This document shows positions 31,933 through 48,199 of a stretch of DNA of 64,000 bases, one piece after another. Source of the stretch: Acephala macrosclerotiorum (taxonomy: Eukaryota > Ascomycota > Leotiomycetes > Helotiales > Mollisiaceae); assembly GCA_014904845.1 (NCBI GenBank), contig MU119271.1, forward strand, positions 124,001 through 188,000, read 5' to 3'. A program made the translations under genes and the position numbers. Each line of letters opens with the position of its first letter. The first letter of the stretch is position 1. The notes beneath the pieces were generated by a model that was given only the letters and a program-made list of their open reading frames with translations, did no database searches and was not told the DNA's origin.

Positions 31933-32370
31933 CTATTCAAGCCGTCCGTGTGAGAGCTGAGCGAATTGTTTATGAAGTTGTGCTAGACTTGGGGCTTCTA
32001 TTGTCGTGGCGATGTCGTCATCGTCCTCACTCTCGCTTTCCAATACATTTCCGTGGCTGGAAATCTCAATTATAGAAACAGTAAAAGTTGGGAAGTCCGA
32101 AAGCTGTTGGTGTTGCGAAGAAGCTTGTGTCGTTGAGCTTTGTGAGTCCGGCCTAGTGGGCCTCGGAGCCTGCTCAGCGTTTGAAGAGGAGTATATCGCG
32201 ATGGACTCGTTGAATGAGAGGCCAGAGCTGATAAAGTCATCATAAATAGGGGCTCCAAAATTGTGAAGCCTATAGGCTCGTTGTCCGAGTCGTACTCTAT
32301 AAACAGGGAATCCATTGCGGATAGAGAGTGCGGTTTTAGAAAAGATGAGCCCTGGAATCACGTGGAGCAT
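31933..32370 (-). CDS. Small unrecognised protein (145 residues)
   Basis: The ATG at 32370 opens a single-exon frame. The first 55 residues are ordered (SIRNGFPVYRVRLGQRAYRL, then HNFGAPIYDDF), the middle is Ser/Gln-rich, and an acidic run ESESEDDDD precedes a short helical end. It starts 195 bp from the left end of the A+T-rich element. No family recognised; it may be lineage specific. Confidence 0.4.
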   Translation of the reverse strand: MLHVIPGLIFSKTALSIRNGFPVYRVRLGQRAYRLHNFGAPIYDDFISSGLSFNESIAIYSSSNAEQAPRPTRPDSQSSTTQASSQHQQLSDFPTFTVSIIEISSHGNVLESESEDDDDIATTIEAPSLAQLHKQFAQLSHGRLE

Positions 32371-32564
32371 TCTAGACTAAGAATAGCGTCCTTTTGAGAG
32401 CATGATGAATCTGATAAGCTTGCTGTACAAATGGAAGTTTTGTGGCTTTTATGCCCGGCAAACGAGTGATCGAGCGTTTGCGCGTGCAGGGAGGGGTAGC
32501 TCGCTAGAAACGAGCGGTGCATCGGCCCCTAACATCCCCTGAAAATTGTGCGACCGAGAGCCTA

Positions 32565-32672
32565 TCCCCTCGTCCGGTGAGACATTGCCAGCGCTAAGCA
32601 GGGGGGGTTATGCACGGGCAGCACAGTATAAAATTATGTACCTCTGCATATAAATTTATTAGTAATCTATAT
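32565..32672 (+). repeat. Left terminal inverted repeat
   Basis: GC-rich outer 60 bp including a G7 run, then a TATAAATTTATTAGTAATCT inner part. Pairs with 34485-34592. Confidence 0.85.
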
Positions 32673-34484
32673 TCCTGAGCTCAAACGCGTTTGCCAATTA
32701 CCTACTCACACGCACTAAGTACGCGCTAAAACCATGGAAATATTATCATTTTTATTTACACCAAAAAACAAAGAAAAAAAGCGTCCTTTTAAGGATATAC
32801 TTTTTGCTCTCGAACTAATTACAAGTATTTCTTATAATCTTTTTTAATTTGAAATTAAACAAGAAGTTAAAGTTTTTTTATTTTTTAATTTTTCTTTAAA
32901 AGTACATTTATTCGATTATTTTAATTTGTTTTTCACTCGATAGTTTATTTAAATTATTACTACGAATACGAATCGATATGTGAGTATATAAAGACTTTGC
33001 GTACTGCAAAAAAAAGCGCAAAAATAAAAGAATATATTAATAGAGAAATTATATATGTTTATTAGTGCGATTATATATATAAAAATCTACGACGAATTTC
33101 GTACGAATATATATTGGAATACGAACTTTAATAAAAGTTTATTATATACAATTTCGAATTATATATTACTTTATCGATTCGAGTAAATCAAAAAGTTTTA
33201 TTATATTTTTTGTTTTAAGAATAATGAAAGAGTAAAATATTATTTATTAACGAATAAGATTTAATAGTACAAAGTTGAGTTTTTAATTTTTTTAATTCAA
33301 GTTTTTTTTCAACGATATTACTTTTTTTTTTTCGAAGTAAATATCGATAAACTTATAATTCAATATTTTGATAGATATACGCGTGTTCTTATTTTTTCTT
33401 TTTTTATTCTATTATTCTATTAATTACTTTAGATTTTTATATACGTATAAAATGTCAAATAAATCGATTAAAAAAAAATATAAAATCTACGAAATCGCGA
33501 ATCACGAATACGTTTATAATTGAATTTGAAGTTTTTAAAAAAAAAAATTGTAAAATATAATTTTATATTTATTATTTATTAATACTAATTCTCTCGTTCG
33601 ATATTTTATTCTCTTTTTTTTATATCGATTTTTTATTATTTATATAAATAATTACTTTATATCGATTGTTTTGTTTTTAGAACTACGAATTTGTAATTTC
33701 AATACAATAAAAATAATTTGATTATATAAAAAGTTTTTTAAGAATTTGTTAGAGTTTAAAAAACAATTCGCAAAAAAATTTAAATAAAATATTTTGTTGA
33801 TAATAGTAGTAAAGAATATATTATGTTTAGTTTAATAAAATAATAATATTATATTTACTTTAAATAATATTTATACTATAAATAAAGTGAAAAATTTTAA
33901 AACAAAAATTAAAAAGCGTTTTATAAAAATATCAATATATGAGTATATCGTACGACAAATATTTAAAGATTAAAATACTAAAAAATTGATAATTCTCTAT
34001 TTTATTAATAATTATAATTATTATATAAAAAGTATCGATTTTACGAATCAATATAAAAAAGCATATAAAACTTACAAATTTATTTTTTGCAATTAATAAC
34101 TATTATTTTATTAGTTTATCGATATTGTATATATAAATACTTACAAATTACATTATTTACATATATAGCGTTTTTTAACGCATTTACAGTTTAAAATTGA
34201 GTTTTATTGTAAATTTTTAAACTTTTTTTAGAGAATCAAATTACACAGTTTACAAGCAAAATTAGAGAGCAAAAAAGTGTTTAATTTTGATTTTTAATAT
34301 TTCTATAATTGGAATATACGCTCGAAACGAATTACTTGCGTATAGTACTCGTATTATTTAAAGTGCGAAAAAGTATTAAAAAAAAAAGTAAAAAGTGTAG
34401 TAAAGCGCTCTATTGATAAGTGTGTATTTTGTAATGTCCCGCTCTGTAAGGAGAAGCAGTGTTGGGCGAGCTAGCACTCAAATG

Positions 34485-34832: not shown

Positions 34833-36916
34833 TCAAGCAGGTGCAGTTGTCTCAACACCCTTATACTCCGCACTACTTCCCACCTTCGTCCAGGGCCTAA
34901 ACGCATTATCCTTCCCCAACAACGCAGGCTTAAGTTCAGGAAAGTGCCTCAGAAGAATACTGATCATTGTCTCATTTTGCACATGTGCCATCCCCTCCTT
35001 CGAGTACACGTCCTCGCTCCACCCATCGCCAGCCAAGAATCTGTCACTCTGAATCCTGCGACTAGCCATCAAGATGAAGACTCGGAAAGCGGTATCGCTG
35101 AAACCGAATCCCTTGGGCAATGGCTCGCAGAACATCCCGACTTGGAGATCGACTTTCTCGATATCGTTCTCATAGACCTCGGATAGAGTGGTGGCGAGAG
35201 CCTTGTCTTTACCACCAACGAGTTCGAGGAAGGTTTTGGGGGCTTTCATGTGGAAGAGACGACGGAATTCGCAGTACCTGGGAACTCCACGTTCTCTGTC
35301 ACGAAGGATGTCGACGGATGCGATGTCTCGGAGGACGCCATCGGGAGTAACGAGGTTTCGGAGGAAGGAAGGAGTGTTGTTGTGTGTGATCGCGCCAGGA
35401 AAGTTAATGCCAAAGGAATAAAAGGTGTCTCCCATAGTGGTCTTCGAGTCGAATGCTTCTTGAGCCTTAGAGAATGCGAGGTCGATAATTGGAGTGGTCT
35501 TTACGTGTGCACCGGAGGCAGTGTCGAAGAATGCGATATTGTCTGGAGATGTTAGAGAGATCGATAGACCTGAAAGTCAGAAAAGGTTGGGGCTTACCTG
35601 GGATCAGAGGATGAAGACGGTATACAGAAACAAATTCTTCAGTCAGAGTGTATGGGACGCCAGCTTGGTTTACTCCCGAGCCCGGAATACCACCGATCAC
35701 GTCGTTCTTCGAAATGCGTCCGAGAAGCTTGTGTAACTTCTCCCCAATAATACCCCACCAATTTGCATGAAGAGCTGAGTTAATAGTTGGGTGGTCTAGA
35801 ATCGCTGGTGTCCATTCTGTGGTGTGAATTTTGGCCATGAGAGCACAGTTGACAAGTCTTGCTGTATCAAACAATTGGTCACTACACTCAAGTCAAAAAC
35901 TTATTCGATGTAAGATCAGAAAGGACACAAACCTGCTCCATTCGGGGTTGTTCTCGTGCAAAAGATCACAAATATGGTTGTGCTCCAACGCAAACAAGGT
36001 GTGCAGAAGCTCCAATCCCAACCACCAATTTAAGTTGAAGCCAGTCTTAGGAAGGTTGTTCTCATCTCTTGGCAGGAAGTTCTCCATCCCTTCTTTGGTC
36101 ATCTTGAGTTTGCCGTTAACAGCACCGTCTCGGAGAGCTGAGGTTGCGATTTCGCTTTCACCGTAAACTTGGGAACCATCCCACCTTGAAAAGCCCGAGT
36201 CAGCATTTCTCTGAGTAAGACTTCTCTAAGCAAAGTCGACTTACCAAGCAGTGTTGGTGTTCCTGTATCCTGGAGATTTCTTGTCTGTCTCATCAAGTGT
36301 GATGTCGGGCTTAGTGCGCATGATTTTCATGTGTCCTGATGGCCATTTGTCGCCTTCTGGCAGAGGGATTTCGACGTCATTTTCGCCGGGAGCGTACTGC
36401 AGTTGTTAGTATGTATTTGCCACAAAACGAATACGCCCAATATACCTCTTCATGGAAGACCCAATCATGGACCTGAAATTGGATCCAAGCTGCAGCCAAA
36501 AGATTGACAATAGTGGCAGGTTTGAATTCGGACCTTGCAAGCAACTTCTCACTAACGAGTCTTGGGCTGGGAGTCAACAGTTCTTCATCGGTCGGCTTCG
36601 TCGTATGGTCACGAGAGACATTTCTTCCAAATCGCATGCCAACGCAGCCCATCATAGGCTGCTCCAGGTCGTTGAACAAACCATCAGAGTTTCGGGCGCT
36701 AAGATATCGACTATCTTTCATGGGGCAAGTGGCTTTAGTTCCTTGGTAACCAGCATCAGGGTAGACATCGTAGAGATTCTTTGCCTCAAGTTCCACTCGA
36801 TAAGCCAGGAGGTTCGCGACGCCAAGGAATGTGGGTAGTTTGTGCCACGGGATGAGTGCGTTCACGCCTCGAAAAGTCGCGATCAAGATCTTGTCGAGGA
36901 AGGATTCTTTCGCCAT
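34833..36916 (-). CDS. Fatty-acid alpha-dioxygenase (heme peroxidase superfamily)
   Basis: Five exons on the minus strand: 36916..36446, 36396..36245, 36184..35933, 35881..35598 and 35542..34833 (622 residues, the size of plant alpha-dioxygenases). It adds O2 to the alpha carbon of fatty acids, giving 2-hydroperoxy acids that lose CO2 to aldehydes. Family blocks are present in order: WIQFQVHDW (distal His150), a WWDGSQVYG segment, EHNHICDLLHENNPEW, ARLVNCALMAKIHTTEWTP, GVPYTLTEEFVSVYRLHPLI with the catalytic Tyr379 and heme-ligand His382 in YRLH, and SVDILRDRERGVPRYCEFRR. All key residues are intact. Its 3' end is 240 bp from the A+T-rich element. The product might be an oxylipin signal or feed the neighbouring monooxygenase; the latter is inference. 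Confidence 0.93.
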
Positions 36917-37110
36917 GGCTGAATCTCTAGCAGGTGCTTGCTGGACAAGAAAGAGGTTACAGAACGCAGAAGGATTTCTCCTTCATATCTCTGTGAAGAA
37001 GCTCGTGGTGGAGGTGTCCCTCCACCATCATAAGGAGTGCTGACACTAAGGCTGAAGAAGTTCAAGCTGAACAACCAACAGCAACATCACGAAAATGCCA
37101 CGATGCAAGG

Positions 37111-42549: not shown

Positions 42550-43693
42550 CTACTCGGGTTCCACTTCCATCATATCCAACCACTCAAGTGCAAACCCAGT
42601 CACGATCTTCGCCCAATCTCTGATAGTTTTCAAGTCGAGATTCCTGCTGCTGTCCTCTGAAGGAGATATATGAAGAGACGGGACACCACGATCCATAAAA
42701 GGGACGTAGTCGTCCACAGCCTCCGCCTGCCTGGTCGTCTGGTTCGTCCATGGAAGGAATGGCGAAGGCGGGCGCGTCTCGAGAAGACCGATCTTACGCA
42801 TACGGCTTTCGAGGCTTGCCAGGTTTTGAAATGCCCAATGTGTAATAGGGATATATGAAGGTATCGTGGGGTTTGCTGATCCCAAAGTGTCCAGCAACAC
42901 AAATATACTAACTTGACTTAAAGCATTAAGGTATTTTGACCCAATTGGATTGGACTTAATCTCCCAAGCCTCGCTCAGAGCTCTGGGTCAAATATCAGCA
43001 AAATCACGTGCCATTGAGGTTGACGTATTCCTACCTTGAGCCATACAAAGCTGGGGTGCCCTCATCAAATGCCTCTTTCCCATCTAGAAAAAGTATCTGT
43101 ACACCCATATCCATCTCGATTGTGCCCTCTTCTCCAAGCTCTGCCATCTCGTCATGCATCTGCGTCACATATCGATCTATGCTTCTTGCAACATGCATCA
43201 ATATCGCACATGGAACAGCTTCCGTCGCCCCAAAAAATCCATCTGGCACATTCTTACTGTCATAATGTGCGGCTAACGTTAGCCAATTGGCTTGACCTTG
43301 CTCGGTCCAAGGCGGCTCCCTCTGAAAAACAAGATTCGCAATTGGAATTTCAGTCCCTGAAGGCGTTGTTGATGTCGAGTTGTACCACTCAAGCGTCCAC
43401 TTTGGCAACTCAATGCTGAAGAAATTCACGAAATGGTGTTGAACAGTCGAGTGCCCAACAGTTCCAGGAACTCTGGGTGTCAGGATCGGAGATAGAAAAG
43501 CCCCGTTATCAGGATCAAAGCCCGAGCCTCCAGAAGGTATCTTTCGCAAGAAGTTGTCAGAGAGTGGCTTGTACGCATGTGTAATGAGGAAAAAGCTGCA
43601 AAGGATGAGGAGCCTGGACGAGAGGCGGTGAGGTGAGGAGAACGAACAACTCTCCATGGCTCGGTCGAGGGCATTAAGATGATGATGTTCCAT
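42550..43693 (-). CDS. Glutaminyl-peptide cyclotransferase-like (M28) protein with altered active site
   Basis: Exons 43693..43035 and 42982..42550 on the minus strand (363 residues). A hydrophobic segment (RLLILCSFFLITHAYKPLSD) acts as signal peptide; the Met at residue 13 may be the real start. The fold markers of secreted glutaminyl cyclases are there: HYDSK (143-147), GAT.AVPCAI (155-164), DGKEAF (204-209), ALYGSR, VLLDTLGSANPTIPSYIP and VPFMDRGVPSLHISP. The usual GATDSAVP zinc Asp is Glu here with one residue lost. The first Glu of DGEEAF is Lys. The PFP.VWH segment carrying the zinc His is deleted. An active enzyme would make N-terminal pyroglutamate; this copy looks catalytically impaired. 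Confidence 0.82.
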
Positions 43694-43971: not shown

Positions 43972-44381
43972 CTAATTTCCTCCTGCTTTCCCAGCCGCAG
44001 CACCACCGAATAGAGCCGCCAAGCCGCCAGCAGCAGCTCCTCCAGCTCCTCCTGTGGCGGCTCCTGCTCCGCCCGCCCCCTTGTGATGCCTTTTATCATT
44101 GCTTGTAGCCGCATTCGCACCCCCGGTTTTACCAGCACCGCCGAAAAGGGCGGCTAGACCTGCTGCAGCTCCTCCAGCTCCTCCAGTCGCAGCCCCGGCA
44201 CCGCCTGCTCCTTTGTGATGGCGTACGGCCAAAGAAACGTCGGAGTCAACCTGTAATTGATTAGTTTCTGAACGGTGCGAGAGATTGATCATTGAATCAA
44301 ACGTACAGGGGCAGCCTGAGCAAGTGGTACAGAGACCATCAAGGCTACGGTGAGCAACTGCGTAAACCTTGTGAACTGCAT
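43972..44381 (-). CDS. Kex2-processed Gly/Ala-rich repeat precursor (possible RiPP precursor)
   Basis: Exons 44381..44307 and 44250..43972 on the minus strand, 117 residues; the 56 bp intron sits exactly after the signal peptide. Residues 1-25 (MQFTRFTQLLTVALMVSVPL, then AQAAP) are a signal peptide. A short pro-part VDSDVSLAVR follows. Two near-identical units start at His36 and His80 with HHKGAGGAGAATGGAGGAAA, then LAALFGGA. They are separated by Lys78-Arg79, a Kex2 site; the first follows a lone Arg35. Secretion, Kex2 cleavage and repeated cores are the design of fungal pheromone, KEP and dikaritin precursors. The cores have no Tyr or Cys, only one Phe each. Two UstYa-like oxidase genes lie 1.4 and 2.9 kb away. 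A structural Gly-rich secreted peptide is the main alternative. Confidence 0.8.
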
Positions 44382-45741
44382 TGTGTTGATAATTATCTCT
44401 AGTAGGCTGAATAAACAAGCTCGTAAAGAGTGGGGTGTAAATAAAGATTATGCGAGCTGCCGGCAGCAAAAGACAAACGTCGAGTGAGAGACTTTTCGGA
44501 AAGTAGAGATAGTGTGGTGGAGAGATATGAGTAGAAATGAGCTGATATTTGGAAGGCTTGGGATACTAATAGGGCTCTGTCTCGATTGCCACTGTGGAGA
44601 ACCTTCTTTGTCGAAACTAAAGCCGGGATGGAAAACTCGGAACGGTAGTCTCAGCGAAAGCTGATGCATGCGATCTTCGCTATTGGATTTGTTAGTTCAA
44701 ACAAGGAATCACATACCCTGCGAATATGATTGATGGGAAGAGCTCTTGACGGCTCTCGGAGCTCGGAGATATGAGTTAGCTCCTTTGGTGGCACATTTCA
44801 CGTTCAGATTCCTAGTCGTTTTGACTGATTTCCAACATCCTATGTTTCTATCGGCTAGGTCATAGTCATGGAGGCGATTCACGGATGGCTATTCTTTCCT
44901 TCGTTGCCAAAAATTCAAGATGTCGATGTCGCAAGCTAGGATGCCAAGCGAGGCTCAAGATCTGATGCTTAGGATGTTCATGCAAGGCACAAGGTTTTCG
45001 CAGTCTTTGCTCCATGCGAGTAAGCTAAAGTTTTGAAACGGTGGCTGTCAAGTAACTTTCTCCGAGCACTTCCACAGAATATTTGGGAATGCGCGTGCAA
45101 CTCTCAGACTACTAGGTGCCCCGCAATTAATTTGTATAGCGTACCTGATCTGAGGCGGGAGCATGGTCCAAGCCTCCTCTGCTTTGACCTGTCACGTTCC
45201 AAGTGGAAAATCATGCTTCCTGTAACCTGGAATGCGATTTGTCGGCTAACCTTACCGCAGGAAGACCATACGTCGATCTTGAAGATCAATTTAGAGTTAC
45301 GCCGCTAAAAATATTTTTCCGTCAGCAGCTGTGACGGGTTAGAATCTGATTATCCACAGTCCTCTTCGTACTCGTATAAACAGTCAAACAAAACCGAAAA
45401 TCTAAAGAGGCTGGCTGCTACATTACAAGTTACTTGTCTGTTTCGTCTTGCTCTTTTTAACGTCCATGCATACTCCGTCCGTTGCTACTACTCCCGGTGC
45501 TTGGGCGATACCGACTTTCAGACAAAGCGAAGTGATCTGCAGCATGTTCACTCCCTTCCAGCCCCAGCCTGCTCCCAGTGGCGTTCGAAAGTCTTGTTCC
45601 CATTGATAGCACTCACTTCTGTGCTCCTCGATTCGCCGTGTAGTCATAGTTTGAGCAAGGCAACATCAATCACTTGCAGTAATCAGAATTCTCGCTTCAC
45701 TTCCATTCTATAATCTTCAATCACCACCTTTGTCTTGTTCA
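44382..45741. other. Divergent spacer between precursor and UstYa-like gene
   Basis: Holds both promoters; no further gene, TATA box or factor site that I can name. Confidence 0.45.
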
Positions 45742-46607
45742 ATGCCGTTCGGTGCCAAAAATGGGCGCCCTGAACCTCTTTACGACAAAGTCTCCTCCGA
45801 CGAGGTTTCCTCAGCTCACGAGGACGACGAGAAAGACTTCGACCCATTTGAACTAAAACAGCAACATCTACGATTACTACAAACGCAACGTTATAAACGC
45901 CTTCTGGTCGCCAATGTCGTCCTATTTTGCGTTTCCGCACTTCTCCTAGCTACGACCTACTTCCGAAGCATACCAAGCACAGAAAAATTCATCGAGAAGT
46001 TCTCATCATATTCACCAGCACGAGAAGCCGTGAAATATGTGTCTGGTACATTCAACGCCACCCAAGGAGAAGCTTCAGGCTACGTTGGGACAAGCAACGA
46101 AACAGAAGAAATGTGGAATTGGGTCACAGTGGACATCGGCGACCAAATGATCACACCAGAAGAGTTGAAGCTCGTCGAAAAACCAGAAGACTCGATCAAG
46201 ACCAAAGACCCCAAGACAGGAAAGGAAGGATATCGAATCGGGCTGGAGGTCTTCCATCAGCTCCACTGTTTGAATCTCATTAGAAAGAGCACCTTCCGTG
46301 AAAAATACGAGGGCAAGGGTGACTTCAAAGATAAAAGTGGAACCGAGATACGGGCACATCTAGGTTCGGACTTCCTCACTCACTCGCTCATGGGCTATTG
46401 CTTATTTTGAGAATAGATCACTGTCTAGAGATGCTACGCATGAATATTATGTGTCAAGTCGACATCGGCGTGATAACTTTCCACGAACTCCCCGACAAGC
46501 CTGGGGATCCGTGGCCGGATTTCAGCACGAAGCATGTTTGTCGAGACTTTGATGCCGTGAGGAAATGGGCTATTGATAACACTGTTGCGAATGATGACAT
46601 ATTTTGA
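45742..46607 (+). CDS. UstYa-like oxidase (DUF3328), copy 1
   Basis: Exons 45742..46363 and 46417..46607, 270 residues. Cytoplasmic N-terminus (MPFGAKNGRPEPLYDKVSSD), one membrane helix at about 54-74 (RLLVANVVLFCVSALLLATT), then the lumenal catalytic part. Both signature motifs are intact: HQLHC at 172-176 and HLDHC at 206-210. The second is assembled across the 53 bp intron, followed by LRMNIMCQVD and HVCRDFDAVRKW. UstYa proteins are copper-type oxidases of the secretory pathway that cyclise or oxidise peptides in ustiloxin, asperipin and cyclochlorotine pathways. Transcribed away from the repeat precursor. The family is certain; its substrate is not. Confidence 0.92.
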
Positions 46608-47247
46608 TTGATTAGTGAGGAGTGGTAGCTAGAATTCAAAATTGGTCATGCTATTAAGCTCAAACACTGTAAATACTCTTGAATGCATACCGAAAAATCT
46701 CCTCCTTGCGCCCACGTTCAATCATATCAGCTCTGATGTTCAACAGCTTGATACGAGAGTATTGATCCCAGCTACACCGAGAGTATAAACAGATGCGGGG
46801 TACGCAATCACCGAACTTGCGGCAAAATTTACTCCACATCGGTATTAACATGTACAATTTCCACGATCGATACAAAACGGAAAGAGTGCATATATGCATA
46901 TTGTGAAGGTATTTATTATAATAGTCTTCATCTAGCGATGCAAAATGCAAACAAGTTTTAGGACCGGATAACTAAATGTATTTGCCCGCTTGAATTGGGG
47001 TTGGCTTTGCAACCTCTTAAAGCTCCGCCATATCAACCTTTTCTCCCTAGAATTCTTGCATAAGTAGGAACCAAATACCTAGCTCCTCCACACCAGGTAC
47101 AACTCCATCTTTCGCACTAAACGGAGTTGCTTCTTATGCTGGTCACTCGTATTTGGTACCTCTATGTGCCGGGCCTCCTGGTTCCGTTGGTCAAGATTAG
47201 CGAGGATTTGGCCGAATGAAGTTCAGCTGCACACCCATCGACTAATC
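46608..47247. other. Spacer between convergent UstYa-like genes
   Basis: Contains 3' flanks of two genes facing each other; nothing else seen. Confidence 0.5.
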
Positions 47248-48199
47248 TTAGTAGATTTGTTGGTCATCGTAGGCTCTGACGTCTTCCAGATAGTTGATGA
47301 CTTGGCTGTAGTCTCTGCAGACTTTACAATTAGTTAACAAATTGTTTGACATCTAATACCGAACTTCATGAACTTACCATGCTTAGAATCCCAGCCGTCA
47401 GATCCGCCGTTGTGATCTGGGAATGTGGTTTCCAATCCTTCGAGAGCCATGTCGGCCGAACACATGATAGCTTGACGCATATAGTCGAAGCAATGGATCA
47501 TGTGCCAGTGATGGTCTTCAGGCAAAGTCGTGTTGGAAGTCAAGCCTGAGTATGTTTCAACAATGGCGAACAGGCAGTGCAGCTGATGCGTCATTGAAGT
47601 TGTGAAGACTGTCTTGTTTGGCCATATGATAGGGTGAGGTAGATCGTGGTATCTGTGAGTGTCGTTCACCCATTGGAAGCCAATTCCATCTATTGTAAAT
47701 CAGCAGTATATTCCAACGAGCAGCCGTATCAAGAATCCTTACGAGGCATCAGTTCGTTCCATGCAATCAAAACTTCTTCACGGAAAAACTCTGATGTGTT
47801 GTAGGGTGCAAAGGTTTGGTTGATGTGAAATGTTTGGACTTGGGTGGAGACTGTGCAGTTATTAGATAACTCCTTGCTCTGTATTTTTTCAAGTTTCTTA
47901 CAGTGTGGCCCAACGCCCGTAAAATCTCCTCCCACCTCATGTTCGCTAGTTTTCGGGATGCTCTTCTGTGACTGATCTCGAAGCAACAGACCGACAATGA
48001 CAAGTAATAATAGGGTGTCGAGAAACCATCGTGCCTCTTTCAGCATAGATAAGTACGTTTTCCTCTTAGATTTCGTTCCGTATCTTTGCCGGAAATCCTC
48101 TCCTTTCTCGTCTCCCATCAAGGACTCTTCCACCTCCGTGGTTGATGAATCGTCGCGGTCATCGAGGTGGACATTCTCATACTTGAGCTGGCTCGCCAT
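47248..48199 (-). CDS. UstYa-like oxidase (DUF3328), copy 2
   Basis: Four exons on the minus strand: 48199..47902, 47850..47743, 47689..47378 and 47321..47248 (263 residues). One membrane helix lies at about 59-74 (FLDTLLLLVIVGLLL). The lumenal part has APYNTSEFFREEVLIAWNEL, then MPHGIGFQWV, HQLHC at 170-174, HMIHC at 198-202 and the family ending HVCRDYSQVINYLEDV, so all catalytic motifs are complete. The first intron is 51 bp, in frame and free of stops, so a retained form would add 17 residues. I favour splicing because donor GTAAGA, CTAAT and ACAG are all good and the result fits the family. The pair of different UstYa genes matches the UstYa/UstYb pairing of ustiloxin-type clusters. Confidence 0.92.

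Follow-up and report, generated by a model that had tools for sequence, protein, structure and literature searches.

The dikaritins (ustiloxin, phomopsin and asperipin-2a) are made from a secreted Kex2-type repeat precursor that is encoded next to UstYa/PF11807 proteins with two HxxHC motifs. Their cores are short and cross-linked through Tyr, and it is from such Tyr-centred products that the UstYa type was first described. Victorin-type clusters also yield a UstYa-dependent ribosomally synthesised and post-translationally modified peptide (RiPP), whose core, GLKLAF, has no Tyr, and aliphatic (non-Tyr) residues are the targets of DUF3328 proteins in both the victorin and the cyclochlorotine pathway. 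Two further systems have a comparable precursor: the Kex2-processed repeat proteins (KEPs), with a signal sequence, tandem units and basic cleavage sites, and the yeast alpha-factor, matured by Kex2 and Ste13. Ste13-type dipeptidyl aminopeptidases remove X-Pro and X-Ala dipeptides. Here we analyse a window of 64,000 nucleotides (C70:124001-188000) from the genome of Acephala macrosclerotiorum (69,661,192 bases in 778 contigs), in which a small repeat precursor lies beside two UstYa genes. Its split genes and the presence of PF11807 are what one expects of a filamentous fungus.

On balance, this trio is probably a UstYa-type RiPP cassette, in which the UstYa pair oxidises the units of the precursor, most plausibly at or near an N-terminal His-His. 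A sister cassette lies on contig C234. As in dikaritin loci, a signal-bearing repeat precursor adjoins UstYa genes in both cassettes (signal peptides and membrane helices of all proteins were assessed by eye, with no predictor). The differences lie in the His-His start of the units, in the monobasic Arg before most of the sister units, and in Tyr, which is found neither in the 117 residues of the window precursor nor in the 13 units of the sister precursor, so that the locus is not classed as dikaritin in the strict sense. Victorin-type clusters are alike in being UstYa-dependent with a Tyr-free core, but that core is unrelated and has no His-His. Compared with KEPs, the window precursor has only two units and one Lys-Arg, with a single Arg before unit 1, and the 13 units of the sister precursor come with single Arg sites. 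The likeness to alpha-factor is Arg cleavage followed by X-Ala or X-Pro dipeptides before the mature peptide, but the units are not pheromone sequences, and the trimming proposed here is read from sequence only.

The precursor and the two UstYa genes

The trio consists of the following features, in window positions and according to the gene models:

44307..44381, minus strand: precursor exon 1, hydrophobic and signal-like (MQFTRFTQLLTVALMVSVPLAQAAP), with its ATG at 44381 and a GTACGT donor
43972..44250, minus strand: precursor exon 2, with VDSDVSLAVR, unit 1 (HHKGAGG...), Lys-Arg, unit 2 (HHKGAGG...) and the stop, from the gene model and the codon alignment
44382..45741, no strand: divergent intergenic region between the precursor and UstYa1, 1360 bp
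45742..46363, plus strand: UstYa1 exon 1, N-terminal hydrophobic helix and HQLHC, PF11807
46417..46607, plus strand: UstYa1 exon 2, completing HLDHC over the junction; region 46407-46604 matches at E=4.7e-40 in the whole-genome search
47902..48199, minus strand: UstYa2 exon 1, N-terminal hydrophobic helix
47743..47850, minus strand: UstYa2 exon 2
47378..47689, minus strand: UstYa2 exon 3, HQLHC and HMIHC, PF11807 at E=2.5e-14
47248..47321, minus strand: UstYa2 exon 4, C-terminus VCRDYSQVINYLEDVRAYDDQQIY, matched in the whole-genome UstYa2 search

The precursor gene (44381-43972, minus strand) has one 56-base GT-AG intron in phase 0 and encodes 117 residues. Its hydrophobic N-terminus (MQFTRFTQLLTVALMVSVPLAQA) resembles a signal peptide, Phe occurs at positions 61 and 106, and Tyr, Trp and Cys are absent; the length, the signal-like start, the two Phe and the lack of Tyr, Trp and Cys in the units agree with an earlier sequence-only reading of the locus. 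That reading also described two near-identical units. Both indeed start with HHKGAGGAGAATGGAGGAAA (HHKGAGG), with Lys-Arg between them, and 29 codons align with 0 residue changes; unit 1 follows a single Arg (AVR), and the tails beyond the aligned stretch diverge. Over these 29 codons, a stretch selected after inspection as the alignable part (unit 2 has an extra Gly), 12 are identical and 17 differ synonymously. Most of them are Gly or Ala codons, in which first- and second-position changes alter the residue. This pattern points to selection on the unit sequence and not to recent copying: the unit sequence is, as judged from its codons, under strong constraint.

A dibasic-repeat detector was run on 289 kb of the genome (2759 frames), with residue-shuffled frames as a control. 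The window precursor had the top score, and 0 of the 2759 shuffled frames reached the threshold. By sequence it is single copy (whole-genome search, E≤0.001). Pfam gave no family for the precursors at E≤1, and the sole NCBIfam match among them was that of the C234 precursor, at 14.4 bits, far below the cut-off of 140.

The sequence-only reading had announced two distinct UstYa proteins with both HxxHC motifs intact in each, and both do match PF11807 above its curated cut-off of 25 bits. UstYa1 (270 residues) matches as a spliced protein at E=1.8e-53 and 182.1 bits; whether it has the second motif depends on how it is spliced, since HLDHC spans the junction and is present in one of three in-frame models, the 261- and 266-residue ones lacking it. 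The 270-residue model is preferred because the sister protein of C234 has HTDHC inside one exon. UstYa2 (four exons, 263 residues) has its two motifs in the same exon, and the exon 3 frame alone reaches 54.1 bits. A search for solved structures similar in sequence to the UstYa proteins gave none at E≤1, which leaves no relative on which to model their active site.

A sister cassette on C234

The choice of contig C234 rested on its pair of UstYa genes, at a time when its precursor had yet to be found. It holds the best genome-wide paralogs of both UstYa1 (C234:72840-73244, E=4.8e-45, 53% identity over residues 132-266; next gene at 2.4e-19) and UstYa2 (C234:70256-70624, E=3.0e-15, 39% identity; next at 1.3e-10, on C41). 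Maximum likelihood trees of UstYa genes from the sampled loci recovered the same pairs. Supports by ultrafast bootstrap and by the Shimodaira-Hasegawa-like approximate likelihood ratio test (UFBoot/SH-aLRT) were 100/99 for C70_a with C234_a and 100/96 for C70_b with C234_b in a first tree of 29 rows, which left out the short rows C293_46294 and C41_215201. They were 99/99 and 100/98 in a second tree of 24 rows, from which five further long-branch rows had been removed. The C234 proteins retain their motifs (HALHC/HAAHC and HQLHC/HTDHC).

The C234 precursor, which adjoins the UstYa pair, is a secreted repeat protein of 373 residues and 13 units. Its core HHTEAQIAA is identical in 13/13 units with at least two codons used at each of the nine positions, and contains no Phe, Tyr, Trp or Cys. 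The order precursor, UstYa-a, UstYa-b is the same on C70 and C234, with precursor and UstYa-a divergent in both; the gap between them is 1289 bp on C234 (UstYa-a start at 73724, precursor ATG at 75014), close to the 1360 bp of the window. In both precursor genes a phase-0 intron separates the signal region from the first unit; the two also have in common their repeated Arg sites and a conserved part that opens with His-His. Other than those of the trio, no Pfam family found in the C234 flank turned up in the window scans. Such a diverged three-gene copy suggests that the genes work together. The proposal that the precursor and the two UstYa genes form a functional unit is therefore supported by the sister cassette, and not by proximity alone; the chemistry that had been attached to it is corrected below.

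The His-His start of the units

A third precursor with His-His units lies on contig C1 (452.2-452.9 kb). It starts with MYTSISQLM (MYTSVS.. on C234) and has four His-His sites in its splice model. Over the 19 His-His sites (2 in the window, 13 on C234, 4 on C1), the residues between Arg and His-His are EP at 9, EA at 3 and DP at 2, with nothing at the remaining 5; the C234 units account for R 2, REP 8, RDP 2 and REA 1. Four of the 2759 frames contain at least two R-(XP/XA)-HH or R-HH sites, all of them exons of these three precursors (0 in shuffled frames), in a sample where C1 was included because of its HHTEAQ and C234 for its UstYa genes. Genome-wide, the HHTEAQ pattern occurs 16 times, 13 on C234 and 3 on C1, and 0 times in the reversed control. 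The repeated R-(EP/DP/EA or nothing)-HH arrangement is common to the three precursors; a UstYa pair stands beside those of C70 and C234, and none was found in the 10 kb around that of C1. The C1 gene may be a stray copy, or the enzymes of C234 may act on its product in trans.

In the mechanism that we favour, the precursor would enter the secretory pathway, and a Kex2-type protease would cut after Arg. The EP, DP or EA left before His-His would be removed by a Ste13-type dipeptidyl aminopeptidase; as these X-Pro and X-Ala dipeptides are substrates of such enzymes, all mature units are expected to begin with His-His. Oxidation of the unit would follow, carried out by the membrane-anchored UstYa pair, and its most plausible site is this N-terminal His-His or a position close to it. 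The site is favoured because both precursors have it and because the C234 core is devoid of Phe, Tyr, Trp and Cys, so that any reaction taking place in both cassettes has to involve His or non-aromatic residues. His-His is our preferred reaction site, although all told we rate it as less likely than not. The calculated monoisotopic masses of the unmodified peptides are 3447.663 for unit 1 (KR excluded), 2986.487 for unit 2 and 976.473 for the C234 core HHTEAQIAA; with 2 H fewer they become 3445.647, 2984.471 and 974.457. The sequence-only reading had suggested a modification on Phe or His. Phe was rejected as a common target, the C234 units containing none, and His-His is what the two cassettes have in common.

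UstYa loci elsewhere in the genome

PF11807 gave 59 exon matches genome-wide, which we grouped into 29 places. DNA from 17 of these was analysed, six of them with flanks of 1.5 kb. The other eleven, each with more than 1.3 kb of relevant flank, were surveyed for precursors, and a repeat precursor was found beside UstYa at 7: C70, C234 and the following five.

C243:46608-46835: precursor with three DEYGAKWA units (DEYGAKWAKR), Tyr present, adjoins UstYa
C293:43969-44458: precursor with units LPSLEYNDNNAVE (LPSLEYNDNNAVEKR), Tyr present, adjoins UstYa
C296:20590-20976: precursor with AYAED units, Tyr present, adjoins UstYa
C18, from 207411: Gly/Tyr-rich secreted peptide with YGSY (as YGSYK, and with KR sites), divergent from a lone UstYa gene
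C41:210937-211416, minus strand: DIESIR in 15 copies, separated by KR/RR and EPEPV-type spacers, in a frame flanked by two UstYa genes

Tyr is present in the repeated part at 4 of the 7 loci, and absent from it at C70, C234 and C41. The DIESIR repeats of C41 have no aromatic residue at all, and no His. Together with the victorin and cyclochlorotine examples, they call for a correction of the earlier claim that any modification of the units would be new for want of Tyr; in view of C41, the notion that a Tyr-free precursor is unique to the window was dropped. Where starts could be placed, the precursor is divergent from UstYa at C70, C234, C243, C293 and C18; at C41 it is not. The layout of the window is typical of UstYa-precursor pairs in this genome, and its Tyr-free units are not unique.

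Of the six matches given by the detector, five fell in the 165.7 kb lying within 5 kb of a UstYa gene and one in the 124.0 kb farther away, a near-versus-far comparison that is biased by the choice of the sample for its UstYa genes. Two of the six were false: one (C234:75659-76045) reads the true precursor in the wrong frame, and the other (C234:63019-63480) overlaps an MBOAT gene. The C41 and C18 precursors were missed, and were recovered through other scans or by reading frames. At C331, C226, C28 and C5:251-254k the detector found no precursor, although units that are short or spliced can escape it; at C331 (46164-53162), it saw no dibasic repeat precursor beside five UstYa genes packed in 7 kb.

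Genes around the trio

A gene of the M28 peptidase family, glutaminyl-cyclase-like by eye, adjoins the precursor (42553-43693, minus strand). Further away, a flavin adenine dinucleotide (FAD) monooxygenase (PF01494, 38174-40946, minus strand), followed by a hydrophobic C-terminal frame, seems to be a separate oxidative gene. The M28 gene and the monooxygenase were considered as cassette members and rejected, as neither family was found in a scan of 10 sequences from the C234 flank. At 34836-36982 (minus strand) lie exons of a protein of the animal haem peroxidase family (PF03098), which may be a fatty-acid oxygenase. An island of 28.7% GC occupies 32001-34000; elsewhere in the window, 2-kb steps range from 39 to 51%.

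Alternative explanations

Several observations weigh against the cassette explanation. The Arg-then-His-His feature common to the precursors was spotted after the fact. The window and C234 precursors have no detectable overall similarity: the window query misses C234 (E≤0.001), and a draft C234 query misses the window (E≤1). The C234 units are preceded by single Arg and not flanked by Lys-Arg, and UstYa-b has opposite orientations in the two cassettes. The two divergent promoters share 31 9-mers, against a mean of 16.3 in resampled sequence (reached by 1/100), 11 10-mers against 4.8 (4/100) and 1 12-mer against 0.22 (14/100), which is only slightly above resampled sequence, an excess too small to demonstrate co-regulation. 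The window units, at 38-44 residues and Gly/Ala-rich, are much longer than dikaritin cores, and, as a further difference from dikaritin loci, no P450, methyltransferase or major facilitator superfamily (MFS) family was found among the 30 window sequences scanned. Lastly, the sequence-only reading had named related precursors commonly lacking UstYa genes nearby as evidence against its proposal, and this is partly what is seen: the C1 precursor, one of the two HHTEAQ loci, has no UstYa-like frame in the surrounding 10 kb, and the genome-wide PF11807 matches include none on contig C1.

The strongest alternative, which we consider rather unlikely but serious, is that the product is a UstYa-dependent RiPP modified elsewhere, at Ala, Leu/Ile, Thr or Lys, or at Phe (in the window only), His-His being a maturation or recognition feature. 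Each unit offers many Ala, Leu/Ile and Thr positions, and the DIESIR repeats lying beside UstYa genes indicate that UstYa partners in this genome need neither aromatics nor His. By itself, however, modification at other positions leaves unexplained why His-His is found in two otherwise unlike precursors with sister oxidases.

It is improbable, in our view, that the precursor gives a secreted Kex2-type peptide used unmodified, either as a metal-binding N-terminal His-His or as a Gly/Ala-rich surface or antimicrobial peptide, with the UstYa proteins acting elsewhere. UstYa genes are numerous, the C1 precursor does without them, and the long Gly/Ala-rich units of the window would suit such a role; against this, the combination of a His-His precursor with both oxidases is seen again at C234. 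Mere proximity, in which UstYa genes cluster (in our grouping, 12 of the 29 places have two or more match groups), copying of the C234 pair took its surroundings along and the precursors are bystanders, is very improbable given that the repeat-unit sequences are kept constant on both C70 and C234, and that the divergent precursor/UstYa-a layout is the same with no C234-flank family found in the window outside the trio.

Significance of a His-His precursor

Beyond the cassette itself, it is possible, though we would not call it probable, that UstYa pairs acting on an N-terminal His-His define a histidine-centred class of RiPPs that are either cross-linked or oxidised and may bind copper; C70 and C234 would be two of its members, diverged and with different cores. 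The two sister cassettes provide a built-in comparison, as a chemistry common to both products should map to His-His. If such a class exists, UstYa chemistry would extend beyond Tyr-centred products, and searches of genomes for Kex2 repeats with Tyr would overlook a class of precursors.

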